Shown here: piece by piece, positions 20,615 to 42,846 of the stretch
How positions within the stretch are numbered: position 1 is the stretch's first letter
Layout of the letters: every line of letters begins with the position of its first letter
Source of the DNA: a virus
Reading direction: 5' to 3' (one strand)
Length of the DNA: 64,000 bases
Virus record (IMG/VR): IMGVR_UViG_3300009703_004110
Span: 268,271 to 332,270 of that record
The notes under the pieces: generated by a model
Database searches by the model: none
What the model saw: the letters and a program-made list of their open reading frames with translations, nothing else
Told to the model about the DNA's origin: nothing
Position numbers and translations under genes: made by a program

Positions 20615-20920
20615 TCAACCCCAAGTTGCTGATACAAGATAATGTCCAGGTTCAAGGTGCCCCTTTTTAATCAAGGCCATTATCATCATATTTAAACTTA
20701 CAGTTCCGTCAGAATAGTCCGTCATTTCGGTGACAGCTTCGTCTACCCACTTCTGACGTGATTTAATTATATCACTCGTACAATCGAACAGAGTTTCTCC
20801 GCCGCTATCGTGCCCAGCAATTTCATCTTCATATGGTTCACATGTGAATCCGAAATGCTCCTTGGCTAATGATAGAATATCTTCTATATCCGTCCAATAT
20901 ACTTCTAGTCTCTTTATCAT
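20615..20920 (-). CDS. Small hypothetical protein
   Basis: 101 residues (MIKRLEVYWTDIEDILSLAKEHFGF...); its ATG overlaps the stop of the release-factor gene. Acidic and mostly helical. No recognised family. Confidence 0.65.
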   Translation of the reverse strand: MIKRLEVYWTDIEDILSLAKEHFGFTCEPYEDEIAGHDSGGETLFDCTSDIIKSRQKWVDEAVTEMTDYSDGTVSLNMMIMALIKKGHLEPGHYLVSATWG

Positions 20921-21603
20921 TTGTTTAATTCCCCAAGCTGGCCTCTAGAGTAAGCTTTGTACGTAATAGTTTTATCATTGATGTGATCATAAACTTTGCC
21001 AGCTTGAACTCTAATGGTTCTAATCTTTTCTTCGCCTCTGCCTCCAGAACCAACTTGTTGCTTACGCTTACTTCTTCTGTTCAAATAAGCCTCTCTGTCA
21101 GCTATGGCTTGTAACTTTGCAGAAATAACGCTGAGTGCATTTTCTTTATTCTGCTTTTGACTACGTTCAGATTCGCATCGCACAATAATCCCTGTTGGCT
21201 TATGCTTAATCTGAACAGCAGAGTCAGTCACATTTCTATGTTGTCCGCCAGCACCAGAACCTCGGGCAGTCTTTATTTCAAGCTCATCCTTTCTAAAGGA
21301 TAATTGTTCAGCCTTTTGAGATTCTGGCAGCACGGCGACAGTAATCGTAGAGGTGTGCACCCTTCCTTTACGTTCAGTAGGCGGGACCCTTTGCCACCTT
21401 ATAATTCCCGATTCTTTCTGAAATAACTTACCGGCATTTTTTCCGATAACTTTAAATATAATAATTCCATCCCTACATGTAATCAAATCTATATCTAACT
21501 TATTTCTTTTTGCATACTTACAATAAATTTTGAATTGAATCTTCACTAGATCTTTTGAATCTGATCCGCCTTCGCCCGCTCTTATTTCTATAATTAATGT
21601 CAT
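20917..21603 (-). CDS. prfA: Peptide chain release factor, RF1-type, without domain 1
   Basis: 228 residues covering domains 2-4 of class I release factors: EIRAGEGGSDSKDL at the start, codon-recognition loop RVPPTERKGRVHTS with PxT (PPT) as in RF1, which reads UAA and UAG, and GAGGQHRN with the catalytic GGQ. The N-terminal domain of normal RF1 (about 130 residues) is missing. RF2 would have SPF instead of PxT. A UAG-reading release factor in a phage that also has an amber suppressor tRNA means the two can compete. Confidence 0.88.
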   Translation of the reverse strand: MTLIIEIRAGEGGSDSKDLVKIQFKIYCKYAKRNKLDIDLITCRDGIIIFKVIGKNAGKLFQKESGIIRWQRVPPTERKGRVHTSTITVAVLPESQKAEQLSFRKDELEIKTARGSGAGGQHRNVTDSAVQIKHKPTGIIVRCESERSQKQNKENALSVISAKLQAIADREAYLNRRSKRKQQVGSGGRGEEKIRTIRVQAGKVYDHINDKTITYKAYSRGQLGELNK

Positions 21604-27436: not shown

Positions 27437-28906
27437 TTAGCCGCTAGTTCTCATGGTTGGAAATAAGATTACATCCCGGATAGAGGTTCGATTTGTTAAA
27501 ATCATAACCAGCCGGTCAATACCGATACCTTCGCCAGCCGTTGGTGGCATACCGAAAGTTAAAGCTCTAACGTAATCTTCATCAAAATACATTGCCTCAT
27601 CATCGCCGGCATTCTTCCTCACTACCTGAGCAGCAAAGCGATCAGCTTGATCCATCGGATCATTAAGTTCGGAAAAGGCATTTGCAATTTCCATACCAGC
27701 AACAAATAACTCAAACCTATCGGTCACCCGTGGGTCGTCATCATTACGTCTAGCAAGCGGGCTGATCTCTGTTGGATAGTGAGTTACAAACGTTGGATTA
27801 ATCAACTGATCTTCAATGTATGTATCAAAGATTAATGTAAACATTTCTCCAATAGAGTCTGGTAGCTCACTCTCATAAGCTGGATTAGCTGACTGCCAAA
27901 ATTCGTGCAAGTTTTGAATCGAATAAGGATCGCCCTCAACACCAACCTTTGTTAGCAACTCATCAAACCTGGCTTCGCCCCATTGGCCGAAGTCAATTTC
28001 AGTATCACCATACGGTCTAACTAAATTACTATAGCCAAACAAATCTCCAACCAACTCAGTAATCATATTCTGAGTCATCTTCATTAGATCACGATAAGTA
28101 GAGTGAGCCGCATAGAATTCAACAGTAGTGAATTCAGGATTGTGCTTGGTGGAAATCCCCTCATTTCTGAAATTCTTTCCAATCTCATATACACGATCTA
28201 GCCCGCCAACAATTAATCTCTTAAGATAAAGCTCTGGAGCAATTCTCATAAAGAGATCCATATCTAAAGCATTATGGTGCGTTACGAATGGCTTAGCTGA
28301 CGCTCCGCCAGGAATCGGCTGTAAGGTCGGGGTCTCTACCTCTAAAAAACCTCGATCTTCTAAGTGCCGACGTACTCCGCTAACAATCTTAGATCTTGTA
28401 ATAAAGACTTGCCTACTGTCATCATTGACTGCCATGTCTAAGTAACGCATTCGAGAACGTGTCTCTTGGTTAGTTAGACCGACATGCCTATCTGGCATAC
28501 CCGCAATATTCTTGGAATACAAATGAATCTCTGCTACATTTACAGTCAACTCACCCATGCGCGTGCGCATCATGGTTCCAGCGAACCAGACCCAATCACC
28601 AATATCCATCGCCTTCCATTCGGCAAACTGTTCTGCACCAACAGTCTTCTTTGATACCATAATCTGAATGGCAGCATCTTGACCATTTACGCGGCCAAAC
28701 CCAAGCTTACCAAGCTCATTCTTAAATCGCAATCTTCCAGCGGATGATACGGTCATATCATTCATGGCCGCAATAGAGTGCTCACTATAAGCAGTAACAA
28801 TGCTCTCAACGCTGGTGTCAAATGGTATATCATTCGGATATGGCTCGATTCCTTCTGCCCTGAGGCGTAGCGCCTTGTCTCTCATTTCTTCATTAAACTG
28901 AAACAT
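27437..28906 (-). CDS. lysS: Lysyl-tRNA synthetase (class II)
   Basis: 489 residues, the usual length. An N-terminal OB-fold anticodon domain is followed by motif 2 (FRNEGISTKHNPEF) and motif 3 (GEGIGIDRLVMILTN). Charges tRNA-Lys; no tRNA-Lys was found in this window. The start overlaps the preceding gene by 14 bases. Confidence 0.97.
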   Translation of the reverse strand: MFQFNEEMRDKALRLRAEGIEPYPNDIPFDTSVESIVTAYSEHSIAAMNDMTVSSAGRLRFKNELGKLGFGRVNGQDAAIQIMVSKKTVGAEQFAEWKAMDIGDWVWFAGTMMRTRMGELTVNVAEIHLYSKNIAGMPDRHVGLTNQETRSRMRYLDMAVNDDSRQVFITRSKIVSGVRRHLEDRGFLEVETPTLQPIPGGASAKPFVTHHNALDMDLFMRIAPELYLKRLIVGGLDRVYEIGKNFRNEGISTKHNPEFTTVEFYAAHSTYRDLMKMTQNMITELVGDLFGYSNLVRPYGDTEIDFGQWGEARFDELLTKVGVEGDPYSIQNLHEFWQSANPAYESELPDSIGEMFTLIFDTYIEDQLINPTFVTHYPTEISPLARRNDDDPRVTDRFELFVAGMEIANAFSELNDPMDQADRFAAQVVRKNAGDDEAMYFDEDYVRALTFGMPPTAGEGIGIDRLVMILTNRTSIRDVILFPTMRTSG

Positions 28907-30542: not shown

Positions 30543-32213
30543 TTACTCGTATGCATTCATGCTGCCACTTTCAATCTTGGCTGCTTCGACTTCCAACTTC
30601 TCTCGCATCAGTGGGCTTAGAATATCACACTTAGCAGGACGCTTTGCCCAATCAGCATTAAGACGCTCACGCATTTGATCGAAGTCTTCGAAGACATAAT
30701 CAACAGGTCCACAGTCCCAGATGACCTCAAGCAAGTCTGTCTCCATACGATAATCTTCCCAGCTTGTTCCTGTTGCAGGATATACCTTCAACTCAGAACC
30801 AACGGAATTAACGATGGTAAGTCCGGGCAGGCTCATCTTGCTAAGGTCACGACTCGGCTTCTTCATAACATCACGAACCGTTCCGTCCGCATACTCGATA
30901 CGACAAAGCTTGGTTGCACACTTTAGTGTGTCACGGTTCTGCTTCTGTAGCAAACCACCGCCCATACCAAAGGCGACATTCTGAGCACTATAACCAGCAT
31001 TCAAAACGGCACGGAGAATAGCGGCAAGGATGCGAGCATCAATACCGTCTCCCTGGATTACAGCCGCTCCGTTAAGAACCTTGTAACCCTTGCTGTTAAC
31101 TGTCACACCGAATGCTGCCTCGCAAGCTTCCAGTCCATCTAGAACACATCTAACAGGATCGCCAGAGTCAGGACGTACTACGAATAGAATTCCCTGCTTC
31201 TGCGCCAGTGGTGCAATCTGAGGAAGAATCGTCCAAAGGAACGATGCTCGATCAGGATTATTATAGTTATAAGAATCAGCAACACAGCTAAGGATTGCTC
31301 CCTCAGGAGTGATTCCAATAAGATGCTCAACTGCGGCCATTTCCTTAGGCCAAGCTGTCATCACACTGTGCTCAGATGCAAGTACCGATTCACCAACCGG
31401 ACGACCTTCGTTCCACTTAGTTGCAAGCCAACCAGCAGTCATGGTATCAGTACCTTCAAAACTTAGAAGGTGACCGGCACCAGTAGTCATCGCAGTTTCT
31501 GCGCTCGATACTCCACGCGAACCAAAATCATGCAAACGGCTGGGAAGCAAGAAGTCAAGCTCTGCTTCAACAGACTCATCAAATGCGGCACGAATCAGAC
31601 GCCAAACATGACGGCTCTTAGTAGCAGTAACGGACGGGCTCCACAGACGCATCAACGCAGTCTCAAGCCAAGTCACCAGATACACAAACTCATCGTCTGT
31701 TAGATTATCTGTGCTTGCCGTAATTGTAAAGCAAGGAACATTCGGATAAACCACTGTTCCATCACGTAGCGCCTTAATCTTGATGGGAATATATCCACCA
31801 TTATCTACGACCTTCTGCCATAGATGCTTGGGCCAACTCATCGGAGTCTTTGCGACACCATGAGTCTTTAGATAGGTCTCTGCTTCATCTACTTCAAACT
31901 GCTCAATTCGATGAGAGATAACAGTTTCAAATAGGTAGCGCATACCAAAGAAAACGATTCGCTCGTCCTCTGCTGTGAGTGGGCCACGGAATGTAAAGTA
32001 CGCAGTCATTGACTTTGCGTCAGGATACATCTGCCAGTGTCCAGTCTTATAAGTATCCGTGTCCAGTAGGAACGGGATACGTCGAGGGTCGCTTTTTAGA
32101 ATGTCAATCTTAAGCTGTTCCATCAGATCCGCTAAGGCATCTGATCCTGCTGCGCCGTGTATCTGTAAGATATTACATTCTGCTTCTCTAATAATATCAT
32201 TTATATTTCTCAT
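30543..32213 (-). CDS. nadV: Nicotinamide phosphoribosyltransferase (NAMPT)
   Basis: Joins nicotinamide with PRPP to make NMN. 556 residues; the family is about 460-490, so the first 45 are an extension. DTDTYKTGHWQMYP, ASEHSVM (active-site His) and VVRPDSGDP (PRPP site) are clear. The product is used by the next enzyme, NMNAT-Nudix, two genes upstream. Together they form a two-step NAD+ rebuilding route like the phage NARP2 pathway, which counters defence systems that destroy NAD+. Confidence 0.95.
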   Translation of the reverse strand: MRNINDIIREAECNILQIHGAAGSDALADLMEQLKIDILKSDPRRIPFLLDTDTYKTGHWQMYPDAKSMTAYFTFRGPLTAEDERIVFFGMRYLFETVISHRIEQFEVDEAETYLKTHGVAKTPMSWPKHLWQKVVDNGGYIPIKIKALRDGTVVYPNVPCFTITASTDNLTDDEFVYLVTWLETALMRLWSPSVTATKSRHVWRLIRAAFDESVEAELDFLLPSRLHDFGSRGVSSAETAMTTGAGHLLSFEGTDTMTAGWLATKWNEGRPVGESVLASEHSVMTAWPKEMAAVEHLIGITPEGAILSCVADSYNYNNPDRASFLWTILPQIAPLAQKQGILFVVRPDSGDPVRCVLDGLEACEAAFGVTVNSKGYKVLNGAAVIQGDGIDARILAAILRAVLNAGYSAQNVAFGMGGGLLQKQNRDTLKCATKLCRIEYADGTVRDVMKKPSRDLSKMSLPGLTIVNSVGSELKVYPATGTSWEDYRMETDLLEVIWDCGPVDYVFEDFDQMRERLNADWAKRPAKCDILSPLMREKLEVEAAKIESGSMNAYE

Positions 32214-33947: not shown

Positions 33948-34256
33948 TTACTTTTTTGCGGAAAGAATATCTAAATAAAATAATATCTCCAAGTCATCGT
34001 CGCCAAGACCTGACATGAATTCTTCCCCATCGATTGTAGTCGCACAGCCTGTGTGATTAATTTTAACAAAAGTGACTTTGCCGTGATCTGATACAAAACC
34101 AACCTTATCAGAATCCATAATAACAACATTCATACGCCTTGGCGACGTAACTCTAACTTTTCGACTATTGATTAACGAAATATAAACGAGCATGGCCCGG
34201 CTCTTTTTCTTAGCACAATATTCTATAAAAGAAAGCTTCCGCCCAATCTTTATCAT
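33948..34256 (-). CDS. FNLDLF-family protein (divergent)
   Basis: 102 residues; start overlaps the Pth2 stop. C-terminus SGLGDDDLEILFYLDILSAK fits the family, with FYLDIL in place of FNLDLF. The N-terminus is basic. Function unknown. Confidence 0.6.
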   Translation of the reverse strand: MIKIGRKLSFIEYCAKKKSRAMLVYISLINSRKVRVTSPRRMNVVIMDSDKVGFVSDHGKVTFVKINHTGCATTIDGEEFMSGLGDDDLEILFYLDILSAKK

Positions 34257-34714
34257 AGCAAAGGAAGGTGGCCGGTAATCCTATCAACATCTTCAACAAA
34301 ACCTGGGCCAATTGCAACGGCTGTCTTTGTCGGAACACCATCAAACTCAGTGAATCCAGCGTCGGTGATTAAAGAGCACGGAAGATTAGCGGCCTTAGCC
34401 GCCTCATATAACTCCACTAACTCTTCTTCACTATCAACACTAACACAGATCTTAGCAAACCTTCCGGCAATCCAAGCACAGACACCCTGTAGCTTTCTGA
34501 TATAACTCTTAAGCCCCCTTGGACCGAAATGTAAATCTACTACCCCGTAAATCCCGCCTTCTTCCCAAAGACCTATATCACCACTACCCCAATCAATTAG
34601 ATCTAATAGTACAGCGCAAGAAGCATGAGCGCCTTGCGACACCATCTTACCTTTCCTCATATTAAGATCTTTTCTTATTATGATTACCTGCTTTGCTTTA
34701 TAATTTTTGGTCAT
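34253..34714 (-). CDS. Peptidyl-tRNA hydrolase, Pth2-type
   Basis: 153 residues. IIIRKDLNMRKGKMVSQGAHA is the Pth2 start motif and PTKTAVAIGP the C-terminal one. Releases peptides from stalled peptidyl-tRNA so the tRNA can be reused. A second Pth2 domain is fused to an HD domain at 36.4-37.3 kb. Start overlaps the methyltransferase stop (ATGA). Confidence 0.9.
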   Translation of the reverse strand: MTKNYKAKQVIIIRKDLNMRKGKMVSQGAHASCAVLLDLIDWGSGDIGLWEEGGIYGVVDLHFGPRGLKSYIRKLQGVCAWIAGRFAKICVSVDSEEELVELYEAAKAANLPCSLITDAGFTEFDGVPTKTAVAIGPGFVEDVDRITGHLPLL

Positions 34715-35305: not shown

Positions 35306-35381
35306 TGGCACGCTGTAAGGGATTCGAACCCTTGACGCGGAGGTCTAGAATCTCCCGCTCTGACCGCTGAGCTAACAGCGC
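35306..35381 (-). tRNA. Amber suppressor tRNA (CTA)
   Basis: Regular 76-nt cloverleaf: acceptor GCGCTGT/ACAGCGT (G1-U72), D-stem GCTC/GAGC, anticodon stem GGAGA/CCTCC (A31-C39 mismatch), loop TTCTAGA with anticodon CTA (complement of 35346-35348), T-arm AAGGG/CCCTT with TTCGAAT, G73, CCA. CTA reads UAG. Weak first pair and G73 are compatible with glutamine charging, but the amino acid is not certain. Confidence 0.93.
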
Positions 35382-36388: not shown

Positions 36389-37327
36389 TTAACCATTAAA
36401 AAGATGTTTACAAATAGCTCGACCTCTGCGATCGATCTGCTTCCACTTAATCTTAAAACTATCAGATTCTCTTCCGCCAAATATCTTGGCATTACTATGA
36501 ACCTCAGATAAGCCTGCAAGTAACAAAGTAATTGCAACGATCTTATTTCTACAGAACTCTTCAGCTTCTGATGCTTTGATAGTATGAATCTCCATATCTC
36601 TCAGAATAAGCTCTCCAATAATTGGGTCGCCATTAATTTTATTCCAAGTCTGATATGATATCTTTGCGTGATCAGGAAAATGAACACGGCCTTCTTCATC
36701 CATTTCTTTACAGTAAGGCTTGCCACAATCATGCATGGTAGCGTACTGCTGAATGATATCCGATGATAACAAACTATTTTTGATATCCTCTCTGTACCCT
36801 TCAAACCAAGAAGGCAGTTTCCAGTCTAGTCGCAACTCTTGTCCGTCCAGATAATGAAGCAAATCTTCATAATGCTTCCAGACGGATAGTCCGTGCTCGT
36901 AAATTGTTTGCCCTTTGGTCTGCTCTATATGCTTCATATCTCGTACCACTTTTTGGTACGGCGTCTCTGGCTGACTAAATTCTTTTAGTGCCAGCGGAAG
37001 CGAGCCACAGAATCTTCGACCTTTATCTCCAGGCTCAATTGCAAGTGCAGTAATCTGATTGTTAATGTCGGGCTCTCGAAAAACAGAAAATCTAATCTTC
37101 TTCTTTTCGGCTCGTGCAATCAGCTTGATTAGCTCGTCTTCATCCTTCGCAGATAGAATTGCGATATGATTAGAAGACTGATACCATTCCGATTCGATCT
37201 CAGAATGCTCTGAAATGAATTCACGAAATGCGTGAAGTGCCTGTGCAATTTGTGTGCCAGGATCTAAATCCTTGCGAGTAATAATATATAGCTTGTCAGT
37301 TGGACAGAGGCCCTAAGTGTGTTCCAT
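36389..37327 (-). CDS. Pth2-HD fusion protein with UAG at codon 5
   Basis: ATG 37327 has AGGAGAGGGAA upstream. The frame reads MEHT, then TAG (37313-37315), then runs open to TAA 36389. After the UAG comes a Pth2-like domain (KLYIITRKDLDPGTQIAQAL...FREPDINNQITALAIEP) and, from about residue 145, an HD domain with EHGLSVWKH, MHDCGK and HFPDHAKIS. There is no ATG, GTG or TTG between the UAG and the start of the Pth2 fold. Full product about 312 residues. Expression seems to need amber reading. The HD part could still be made alone from a later start near 36949. Confidence 0.8.
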
Positions 37328-37336
37328 TTCCCTCTC

Positions 37337-37744
37337 CTATAAGGTCTGTTGTATGCTATCCATATCTTCTATCTCTATTTCATCAAAGCCAAAGTCGGCT
37401 TGAAATGTGCGGACGCTAGTGCTATCTGTTTCATCAGAATGAATTGAGTGCCAATACTGCCCATCATATTCTGCGTTATTTACAAGATGCACATGATGCA
37501 CATGATAGACTCTTCCATTAATTTCTTTACTTAACCAAGTAGATAAAAGACGCTTATTCTTTCCCGATTCTCCAGCTTCGCCAGTAATATACCAGCCATG
37601 CCCAAATAATGAATCGGTGTTTCCAATGCCCCACTCATCAGAAGTTAAGTTATTATAAAGATGATTCATTCTATCTCTGTAGAAATCCCATTCTCCAATC
37701 CATAGAACATTATAACCAACATCTGAATAAGTATTCCTGCCCAT
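37337..37744 (-). CDS. Hypothetical protein upstream of Pth2-HD
   Basis: 135 residues, aromatic- and His-rich (VYHVHHVHLVNNAEYDG). It ends in TAG at 37337-37339. The frame continues EREMEHT to the second UAG and then into Pth2-HD, so suppression at both codons would fuse the proteins. No known family. Confidence 0.65.
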   Translation of the reverse strand: MGRNTYSDVGYNVLWIGEWDFYRDRMNHLYNNLTSDEWGIGNTDSLFGHGWYITGEAGESGKNKRLLSTWLSKEINGRVYHVHHVHLVNNAEYDGQYWHSIHSDETDSTSVRTFQADFGFDEIEIEDMDSIQQTL

Positions 37745-38714: not shown

Positions 38715-39482
38715 TTACAGAAACCTACTAACGTACTCTCTATCTTCTTTAAAGAGAGGAATCTCCCAGTCGATAGTCCATCTATTACGTTTGGCTATCA
38801 CAGTTTCTTTAGCCCCATGCTTCATAAAAGTCACAGGTTCTTCAAAGCTTTTACGAGTTACAGTAAATCCTTTTTGAAAATGACTTGGGACGTCTTCCCA
38901 CGGAGTACCATTATTTCTCAACATTTCTTTCATCTGCAAAACAGTTCTACCATTACATTCTTTATGAGAAAAATAATGCCTTGCATACATTGAAACAGAA
39001 TTGCGCAAAGCGTCTTGCTGTCTCCATACAAAAGCATTAACAACTTCATGCTCAGGAAGATTCCAGAACCTAGAATCAAATTTTGGTCTAGAGTCTGCAA
39101 GGCTTGGATCGCTCATAACTAATGCTGCATAAAACTCAACTGCTACAGCAGAAGCAATAACGCTATTCATCTTTCTGGTTTTATAACCAAAATAAGGCTG
39201 AGTCTGCTCTGATTCAGTATCAGTTATTAGAAAGGATATTTCATCAGACTGGACGTAAGCCATCTTACAACCTTGGATTTCTTGGCACCCAACAATGGCA
39301 CCTACAGCCATAGCCAAAACAAATTTTTCATTCCAAGGAGAATTAGCTTCTTTCTTTAGACTCTTAGTAAATTTACTAAAATTCTTTCCATCTACTCGGC
39401 CAATAACAGGAACGCCACTAACTAGCTTAAAGTTAGTTTGCTTCTCGTAACCCTTCATCCTATTTTCTAATGTATCAAACAT
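38715..39482 (-). CDS. Thg1-like tRNA 5'-end polymerase
   Basis: 255 residues. GRVDGKNFSKFT and YVQSDEISFLI carry the metal-binding Asp residues of Thg1 proteins, which add nucleotides 3' to 5'. Thg1 adds G-1 to tRNA-His; Thg1-like proteins repair 5'-shortened or mismatched tRNAs. Several tRNAs here have a G1-U72 first pair and could be substrates. Overlaps the RNase H gene. Confidence 0.9.
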   Translation of the reverse strand: MFDTLENRMKGYEKQTNFKLVSGVPVIGRVDGKNFSKFTKSLKKEANSPWNEKFVLAMAVGAIVGCQEIQGCKMAYVQSDEISFLITDTESEQTQPYFGYKTRKMNSVIASAVAVEFYAALVMSDPSLADSRPKFDSRFWNLPEHEVVNAFVWRQQDALRNSVSMYARHYFSHKECNGRTVLQMKEMLRNNGTPWEDVPSHFQKGFTVTRKSFEEPVTFMKHGAKETVIAKRNRWTIDWEIPLFKEDREYVSRFL

Positions 39483-39932: not shown

Positions 39933-40544
39933 TTATGCTAGCTCCTCGTAAAGAGCCTCGTCATTTCTGCATCTTTTACGTAGTTCAGTATACCAAGCTT
40001 GATTCTTAACTTTGAACATTAAGACGCCAGGCTTCTTTGGATGCTTGGCTTTGCATACTACGCCTTCGAATGTCATCCCCGGTAACGTACCGTTTCTAAC
40101 TTGCTCTAAGAACGTGGCATTCGGCTTACCTCTATAGAGCATAGGTGCTATATCTAAATGTCCAAACAGCTTTAAGAATTCTTTGGGCGGAACCATTCCG
40201 CTCTTAAATAGATTGGCATCAAACAAGACTATTTGATGCTCTTCGGTATTGTCGTGCCATCCAAAAGATGAACTCTCTCCAAAGAATTCAAAGAACAATA
40301 CGACTTTATCGAGCCGTTGTTTTCTCATGATCTTGGAAACATCATCTTCGTACTTATTTCGGATAAGACCTATGGCTTCACCAAAGGTTTCGTCGTCTGC
40401 ACCAAGCATTCTCTTGCGAGTGCCAAACTTATAGAAGCCACGCTTCTTTGACCATTCGGCTCTGATGTTGGAACCATCTAATTTGTCAAAGGCATAAACA
40501 TCAAGATTAGATATCTCGCCTGTTATTGATGGATACTGTTTCAT
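39933..40544 (-). CDS. RNA ligase, Rnl2-like
   Basis: 203 residues. DKLDGSNIRAEW holds the nucleotidyl-lysine (KLDG). KFGTRKRMLG, FFEFFG, FEGVVCK and FKVKNQAW correspond to the later ligase motifs. The short form lacks the C-terminal domain of T4 Rnl2 (about 330 residues). It may seal nicked tRNA. Sits beside RNase H and Thg1. Confidence 0.88.
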   Translation of the reverse strand: MKQYPSITGEISNLDVYAFDKLDGSNIRAEWSKKRGFYKFGTRKRMLGADDETFGEAIGLIRNKYEDDVSKIMRKQRLDKVVLFFEFFGESSSFGWHDNTEEHQIVLFDANLFKSGMVPPKEFLKLFGHLDIAPMLYRGKPNATFLEQVRNGTLPGMTFEGVVCKAKHPKKPGVLMFKVKNQAWYTELRKRCRNDEALYEELA

Positions 40545-41661: not shown

Positions 41662-42846
41662 CTATACCTCACTTACAATATTCATTCCAAGAAAAGTCAT
41701 GCCTAGTGCCAAGTCATCTAACATTGGCTGAAACAAAGCTTGTCCCTCTGGATTATTCTGAATTTTAACATCCATATAAAGTCCGTTAATTTTCTTTGCT
41801 AACTTAACCAGAGCCGTTAGTAAAGTCTTTGGATTAAGATCACTTTGTGATTTAATCAAAGCATAGATAAGCTCCGGAGACTTTAGCGCACCAGACTCTG
41901 GCTTTAGCCCGGCACTCTGTAAGCGTGCCAAAGTATAGCTCAAGTATAGGCCAGAAGATTGTTTCAGAGATTTAATCTGGTCCAAATCTAATTTCTTAGT
42001 ACTCTTTGGTGAGCTATTCAAAATGAAGCCAACTAATACATTATACGCCAAATCAGGGTTTGGAAACTCGTCAATCAGTAGATCATAAACCTCTTGGGCC
42101 ATGACGGTGTTGCCCTCCCTGCTTGACATCTTCTTCCCTTTAGCGATTACTAGTCCAAGCGGAACATGCGTAATTTCGCCCTCGGGAAATAGCTGTGCCA
42201 ACTTCTTAAAGTGCGGGCCTTGCTCCGAACCCGTTAGATATAACTTACTCTCACCATTCCAGGCTTGAGCTAGAGCGACGTCTTGCCAAAAATAGCTAGT
42301 ACTTCCATCGCTTTTAATTCCAACAACATACTCGTCGTCAGCTATAAAGCCTTTAGTACCTTCATACTTACCATTTCCGCTTACTAAAAGAGAATCGTCA
42401 TTCAATATCATATCTGATGCAAAGAAGACTGCACCATTAATATAGTAGTCAGACCACTTAAGCCATTCTTCTAGTTTGCTTAGGGCGTCTTCTTTGGAAA
42501 CATCACCATCTAATGTGTCCCCAAGGATGGCCACAAAGTCAAGGCCAATCCCCATGTTTTCAAATGCTTTGGCAATGACAAGGTTTGATAGGTGACCAAT
42601 ATGAAGGTGCTTATTTAGATTCGGACTAAACCCATCAACTATCGAATAAGCCTTAGGCTCTACAAACAGATCGTGTAGACTTATACTCTCTGGAATATTA
42701 ATGTTAGTAAACCTTCCAGACTTAACCAAAGTTAAGCTATGATAGTCTGCCCACTTACTGATCTCTTCTGATGGTTTGCCAAATACACATAAAGCAAAGT
42801 CCATCATCGGCGGCGTTGTAGCTACCTTTCCAATATCGATTTTCAT
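41662..42846 (-). CDS. argS: Arginyl-tRNA synthetase, short form
   Basis: 394 residues against about 570 in bacteria. SPNLNKHLHIGHLSN (HIGH), a middle with GSEQGPHFKK, KKMSSREGN (KMSKS equivalent, typical of ArgRS), and a DALR-type C-terminal helix bundle with YLSYTLARLQS. The N-terminal Add-1 domain that contacts the tRNA D-loop is missing. No tRNA-Arg was found here. Confidence 0.9.
   Translation of the reverse strand: MKIDIGKVATTPPMMDFALCVFGKPSEEISKWADYHSLTLVKSGRFTNINIPESISLHDLFVEPKAYSIVDGFSPNLNKHLHIGHLSNLVIAKAFENMGIGLDFVAILGDTLDGDVSKEDALSKLEEWLKWSDYYINGAVFFASDMILNDDSLLVSGNGKYEGTKGFIADDEYVVGIKSDGSTSYFWQDVALAQAWNGESKLYLTGSEQGPHFKKLAQLFPEGEITHVPLGLVIAKGKKMSSREGNTVMAQEVYDLLIDEFPNPDLAYNVLVGFILNSSPKSTKKLDLDQIKSLKQSSGLYLSYTLARLQSAGLKPESGALKSPELIYALIKSQSDLNPKTLLTALVKLAKKINGLYMDVKIQNNPEGQALFQPMLDDLALGMTFLGMNIVSEV

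Follow-up and report, generated by a model that had tools for sequence, protein, structure and literature searches.

A phage gene for a protein with a peptidyl-tRNA hydrolase 2 (Pth2) domain and an HD domain has an in-frame UAG as its fifth codon, and with a probability of roughly 0.87 this codon is a gate that is opened by a dedicated suppressor tRNA. Comparison across phages demonstrates the putative gate to be conserved, to mark the polypeptide start irrespective of the domain order, to covary with the anticodon of the suppressor tRNA and to be followed by a base unlike that behind ordinary stop codons. Because of this conservation, the covariation of codon and anticodon and the bias in the next base, it is almost certain that the phage's own suppressor tRNA reads this codon.

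Results

The analysed window, a stretch of 64,000 nucleotides, is part of the 332,270-base virus record IMGVR_UViG_3300009703_004110 and harbours the gated gene on its minus strand (Table 1). A sequence-only reading had described an ATG with a strong ribosome binding site, a UAG at codon 5 followed by about 307 open codons, the lack of an alternative start between the UAG and the Pth2 fold and a tRNA with the anticodon CUA, all of which is confirmed. The gene opens with the codons ATG GAA CAC ACT TAG behind the motif GGAGAGG, exactly 307 sense codons precede its TAA, the first in-frame ATG, GTG or TTG past the TAG lies 121 codons downstream and ARAGORN reads the anticodon of the tRNA as CTA. 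The frame is unbroken across the UAG, with a change of frame of the prfB type being absent. The gene upstream of the gated gene (37744-37337) ends in TAG too, in the same frame.

Table 1. Features of the gated locus and of neighbouring genes in the window
Feature	Positions	Strand	Basis and remarks
Shine-Dalgarno-like GGAGAGG	37331..37337	-	Read directly; lies before the gated gene and shares bases with the TAG that ends the upstream gene
ATG start of the gated Pth2-HD gene	37325..37327	-	Sequence and ORF; ATG at the homologous place in 76/79 UAG-gated clusters
In-frame UAG gate, codon 5, next base G	37313..37315	-	Read directly; conserved in homologues
Pth2-HD body after the gate	36389..37312	-	307 codons 37312-36392, TAA 36391-36389
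Pth2 domain, residues 7-97 after the gate	37022..37294	-	Pfam PF01981, Foldseek
HD domain, related to HD of bacterial tRNA nucleotidyltransferases	36392..36970	-	Residue pattern, hmmsearch, Foldseek
Suppressor tRNA, anticodon CUA	35306..35381	-	ARAGORN; strand of the gated gene, ~1 kb downstream of it
RF1-type release factor without domain 1 (P-P-T tripeptide, GGQ motif)	20917..21603	-	Motifs; putative member of the system
Lysyl-tRNA synthetase, full	27437-28906	-	
Arginyl-tRNA synthetase-like fragment	41662-42846	-	
Nicotinate/nicotinamide phosphoribosyltransferase-like protein	30543-32213	-	
Thg1 homologue	38715-39482	-	
RNA ligase	39933-40544	-	

When the whole record was scanned for an ATG with a Shine-Dalgarno-like motif in front, a stop after at most 8 codons and no fewer than 60 open codons behind the stop, the Pth2-HD gene was the sole strong early-stop gate, the next best lags being 17 codons for TAG, 19 for TGA and 14 for TAA. 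Only one of the 25 tRNAs in the record has the anticodon CUA. The window encodes another Pth2 (34253-34714), whose gene is ordinary and has no gate.

The Pth2 domain matches PF01981 above the curated Pfam cut-off (E=5.7e-10, 39.9 bits versus 23), whereas the HD match to PF01966 stays below it (E=0.0064, 17.2 bits versus 22); both folds are recognised in the PDB, and the earlier assignment of a Pth2 plus an HD domain stands. In the AlphaFold model of the 307-residue product (mean pLDDT 96), the first half resembles archaeal and human Pth2 in a Foldseek search (target-normalised TM 0.70-0.79 for the best matches, 0.75-0.79 for 2zv3, 3erj and 1q7s), and the second half the HD part of a bacterial tRNA-processing nucleotidyltransferase (3wfr and 3wfp); the HD protein 4s1b is matched as well. 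The HD region matches 3wfp by hmmsearch with an E value of 0.0065 and keeps the pattern H...HD...H...D, with H19, H73 D74, H94 and D118 invariant in a 7-sequence alignment (A3). By their resemblance to tRNA-handling enzymes, both products look tRNA-directed. The jumbo-phage PTH2, which belongs to the same enzyme family, has been proposed to rescue jammed ribosomes by releasing the peptide of a cleaved tRNA (Iyer et al. 2021; PMC7824862), a paper that nowhere mentions stop codons or suppressors; the name translation-rescue protein, given to Pth2-HD beforehand, may be apt.

The first homologues inspected, which share 39-43% protein identity, all possess an early UAG. LR745206 starts with ATG AAC AAT TAG and pT24 with ATG AAA TAG, while CM1, RAS14 and XacN1, in which HD precedes Pth2, start with ATG AAG TAG and thus have the UAG at the HD start. 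Stand-alone Pth2 genes of CBB, XbC2, Arash, ME3 and the huge metagenomic phages LR756500/501/504 have it at codon 3 or 4, and in the mycobacteriophages Myrna, Phabba and ErnieJ it directly follows the ATG or GTG. Across proteins of about 40% identity it is hence the UAG and not a sense codon that is kept, and the Pth2-HD gene has no intact start just downstream.

On a larger scale, TAG is the nearest upstream in-frame stop for 141/165 Pth2 domains from IMG/VR and phages. A cluster counts as UAG-gated if it has an upstream start and if no ATG intervenes before the domain. By this definition, the 109 dereplicated Pth2 clusters, whose type-A loci were gathered mainly via an HD search, divide into 79 UAG-gated, 2 UGA-gated, 24 in which an ATG follows the stop and 4 other clusters, numbers that are not counts of independent events, the clusters being related to one another. 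The gate is found at codons 2-5 in 73/79 UAG-gated clusters, and UAA hardly ever serves as the gate stop. The PHROG families 34073 and 26054 look like Pth2 and HD pieces truncated by gate stops.

The 24 clusters in which an ATG follows the stop either lack a gate or are ambiguous; some of them have a CUA tRNA (L067, L074, L075, L079, L088 and L094, loci for few of which HD was located). At L026 (3930-4010) the Pth2 frame is shifted by one base behind ATG...CAG TAG G, which may represent a broken gate, a frameshift or an assembly error; among the 20 tRNAs found in this 165-kb record neither a CUA nor a UCA anticodon occurs. The Pth2 genes of RaK2 and Hallingskeid are ungated, and a pattern search found no CUA tRNA in either phage.

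The HD genes behave alike. The 83 HD clusters comprise 46 with a UAG start gate, 3 with a UGA start gate, 8 with an internal UAG and 6 in which HD follows a gated Pth2 as a fusion. The remaining 20 do not satisfy the strict rule, though several of them have a UAG slightly past the rule limits. As a separate gene HD usually has a gate of its own, and fusions in either order have a single gate at the polypeptide start. Because a separate HD is itself gated and fusions are gated once, the gate tracks the start of the polypeptide and not a residue of either domain, which argues for expression control. The residue inserted at the gate is probably irrelevant, the gate serving expression. The HD gene of L254 is ungated, and its whole 156-kb contig contains one tRNA, which is not a suppressor. 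In L256, an internal UAG interrupts the HD gene, and the 215-kb contig, which is filed under a Chloroflexi MAG, contains six tRNAs, none of them a suppressor.

Beyond the sequence-only reading, HD is gated separately when unfused, UGA gates occur and the system is widespread. A third family (MT#[SD]VKEAAE...HQQ.FAVA), which has no Pfam match, shows a UAG at codon 3 at L048:5965 and L057:5789, with a strong Shine-Dalgarno sequence upstream and several CUA tRNAs adjoining. The prediction that another early-UAG gene would be found in the Stenotrophomonas phage DLP5 (L306-L307), a relative of Summit which possesses a CUA tRNA, failed: no convincing case and no Pth2 or HD match was found there.

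A CUA tRNA is located within ~4 kb of 49/79 UAG-gated Pth2 clusters, and a whole-record pattern search together with ARAGORN recovered one for at least 9 further clusters. Counting the two annotated ones of XacN1, the total is at least 59/79, a lower bound as the pattern catches ~75% of known CUA tRNAs and many records are fragments. Nearby CUA tRNAs are without exception on the strand of the gated gene (60/60). In the loci L001-L177 the 31-39 pair of the anticodon stem is open in 37/96 CUA tRNAs (39%) versus 40/509 other tRNAs (8%; p=4e-13), and A37 A38 is present in 86/96 of the CUA tRNAs. According to a recent paper, readthrough of stop codons can be promoted by tRNAs whose anticodon stem has an open pair, although its bacterial examples concern opening at the other end of the stem (PMC13092985). 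The ordinary tRNAs that the suppressor tRNAs resemble most are mixed, with Met, Arg, Thr, Lys and others.

The few UGA gates offer a test of the match between codon and anticodon. In L086 both Pth2 and HD have UGA gates, and two tRNAs with a UCA anticodon are located after the tmRNA, where sister loci hold CUA tRNAs; no CUA tRNA is present in all 342,591 bases of the record. Although UGA is the commonest stop of this record, no convincing UGA gate was found in it besides those of Pth2 and HD. For the other UGA-gated records, L135, L137 and L045, a UCA tRNA had been predicted beforehand and was found in 3/3, with a CUA tRNA in 0/3, although it lay outside the initially fetched loci and was recovered from the wider records; the L045 record of 67,768 bases has a single tRNA, with a UCA anticodon. 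A UCA tRNA without a CUA tRNA is thus present in 4/4 UGA-gated records, and only these four are available. This covariation of UAG gates with CUA tRNAs and of UGA gates with UCA tRNAs supports the connection that had been drawn in the window between the UAG and the nearby suppressor tRNA.

After the gate UAG, the next base is a purine in 76/79 cases (59 A, 17 G) and otherwise C (3), never T. At ordinary TAG stops in these loci, a purine follows in 128/234 cases (69 A and 59 G, against 57 T and 49 C; Fisher p=1.5e-13, a value that overstates independence because the counts come from related sequences). A purine after UAG, above all A, favours amber suppression, while a following U favours termination. 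UAG serves as the terminator of 22/98 chosen ORFs of the window and, in related loci, of 152/1055 ORFs with a length of 120 aa or more.

With respect to termination, the phage encodes an RF1-type release factor of its own, which possibly competes at the UAG gate; a release-factor match is present in 12/31 other records tested. An RF2-type factor had been predicted for the UGA-gated phage, which failed, as the factor of G001 is of RF1 type (P-P-T). Several of these phages have RF1-type genes that lack domain 1 (loci L328-L338). The release-factor gene of L328, L329, L330, L336, L337 and L338 has an in-frame UGA near codon 40, and in L334 the frame changes between the two halves of the gene around GGAGGGGTCTTTGAG, a site that closely resembles the frameshift site of Escherichia coli prfB; the copy in the window has neither an in-frame UGA nor a frame break. 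A search for a pyrrolysyl-tRNA synthetase in the phage gave only a match to PF01409 below the cut-off, inside the lysyl-tRNA synthetase. Genes with repeated CPxHG...QTPKNH...CPKC motifs, which are homing endonuclease-like, are located near gated Pth2 genes in L089, L095, L117 and L122.

Discussion

In the proposed mechanism, ribosomes would start at the ATG and reach the UAG at codon 5, where translation would terminate after Met-Glu-His-Thr as long as the phage tRNA is missing. Once the CUA tRNA is made, matured and charged, an amino acid would be put in at the UAG and Pth2-HD would be produced. As the tRNA lies on the same strand, downstream of the gene, a common transcript would postpone opening by the time that maturation takes, and the RF1-type factor of the phage may push the gate shut. 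Readthrough would accordingly be expected during infection, and Pth2-HD may be made only when the phage's own suppressor tRNA is active, as had been suggested at the outset.

What the gate is for can be stated with less assurance. A lock-and-key switch, in which the charged phage tRNA signals tRNA supply and frees the tRNA-directed hydrolases while the RF1-type factor opposes, is a picture that we offer tentatively and at somewhat less than even odds. The purpose that we favour is a delay or an AND gate, such that the pair of tRNA-directed hydrolases is made only once the phage tRNA supply works, a conjecture which could readily prove wrong; peptidyl-tRNA or damaged tRNA would then be the class of substrate.

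As the main alternative, the same gate could provide negative feedback, with Pth2 and HD limiting the suppressor tRNA or clearing faulty peptidyl-tRNAs that arise from suppression, so that the remedy is made in proportion to suppression as in the autoregulation of RF2. UAG being a real stop in these phages, suppression would need limiting, both domains look tRNA-directed, and translation genes recur near gated loci, namely those for Thg1, IF3, YqeY and tmRNA, with a permuted tmRNA in 12/79 loci. Nothing, however, marks the suppressor tRNA as the substrate, and the ungated Pth2 of RaK2 and HD of L254, which occur without a suppressor tRNA, imply that the enzymes are useful without suppression; we regard negative feedback as unlikely.

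Constructive neutral evolution would dispense with a benefit altogether: after the origin of a suppressor tRNA, a UAG would have been tolerated, and dependence would since have preserved the pair. The mixed resemblance of the suppressor tRNAs and the drift of the gate over codons 2-9 fit such a lock-in, but random UAGs would scatter over genes and positions, whereas the same two families are hit repeatedly, at the polypeptide start, in both domain orders and with a biased next base, and the record scan yields one strong case. A lock-in of this kind is accordingly improbable.

Still harder to uphold is re-initiation, by which the ATG...UAG would be a leader minigene like infC or the lambda bar minigenes and translation would restart at a weak start such as AUU, with the suppressor tRNA being unneeded. 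AUU is indeed the codon after the gate in 36/79 clusters, a GTG directly after the UAG could be the start in the mycobacteriophages, and an ATG follows soon past the UAG at some loci. Yet in 43/79 clusters the codon is another one, among them AAC, GTT and ACC, and the near-absence of UAA gates is left unexplained, as is the joint change of gate codon and tRNA anticodon; it is this covariation of UAG with CUA and UGA with UCA that disfavours re-initiation and renders it very improbable.

Two further explanations are rejected as having next to no probability. Reassignment of UAG throughout the genome (code 15), with the gene being one of many, would account for the CUA tRNA, but UAG remains a normal terminator and one strong gate is found in 332 kb. 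A sequencing error or decayed gene, for which nothing speaks beyond the stop itself, is contradicted by the same UAG in many isolates and metagenomes in front of an intact and conserved body.

A putative gate that is opened by a suppressor tRNA has relatives among known systems. In the crAss-like and huge phages of code 15, a phage CUA or UCA tRNA likewise reads a stop inside phage genes, and a role of the suppressor tRNA in the timing of gene expression has been proposed. The phages considered here, in contrast, use the standard code, and the stop at the start of two gene families would act as an expression gate. An early in-frame stop (UGA) also controls the synthesis of a translation factor in the case of RF2, but prfB involves a +1 frameshift and senses its own product, whereas the Pth2/HD gate would employ a dedicated tRNA and no frameshift. 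Pyrrolysine (UAG) and selenocysteine (UGA) are likewise inserted by a dedicated tRNA at a stop codon, in a small number of genes and against the background of the standard code. What counts in those systems is a special active-site amino acid, whereas the present gate is located at the variable extreme N-terminus, its tRNAs are mixed and its codon is swappable to UGA.

CUA tRNAs are also present in the standard-code phages XacN1, RsoM2USA and Summit. The authors of the XacN1 genome read through amber stops and found no target for its two CUA tRNAs (PMC5852040), those of Summit sought targets of the suppressor tRNA and found none (PMC9022506), and for RsoM2USA several potential target genes are only suggested (PMC8504454). 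The HD-Pth2 gene of XacN1, with ATG AAG TAG at its start, is a candidate target. A prior description of a stop gate on Pth2 or HD was not found in the open-access literature, although absence there is not proof.

Cumulatively, the gate would give the suppressor tRNAs of standard-code phages specific targets where published attempts had failed (PMC5852040, PMC9022506). Earlier authors had sought readthrough where genes end, whereas the gates are located at their starts, where gene callers trim. Recognition of the gate corrects how Pth2 and HD genes are annotated in many phages and suggests tRNA-based control of gene expression, for which the match between gate codon and anticodon provides a clean test.
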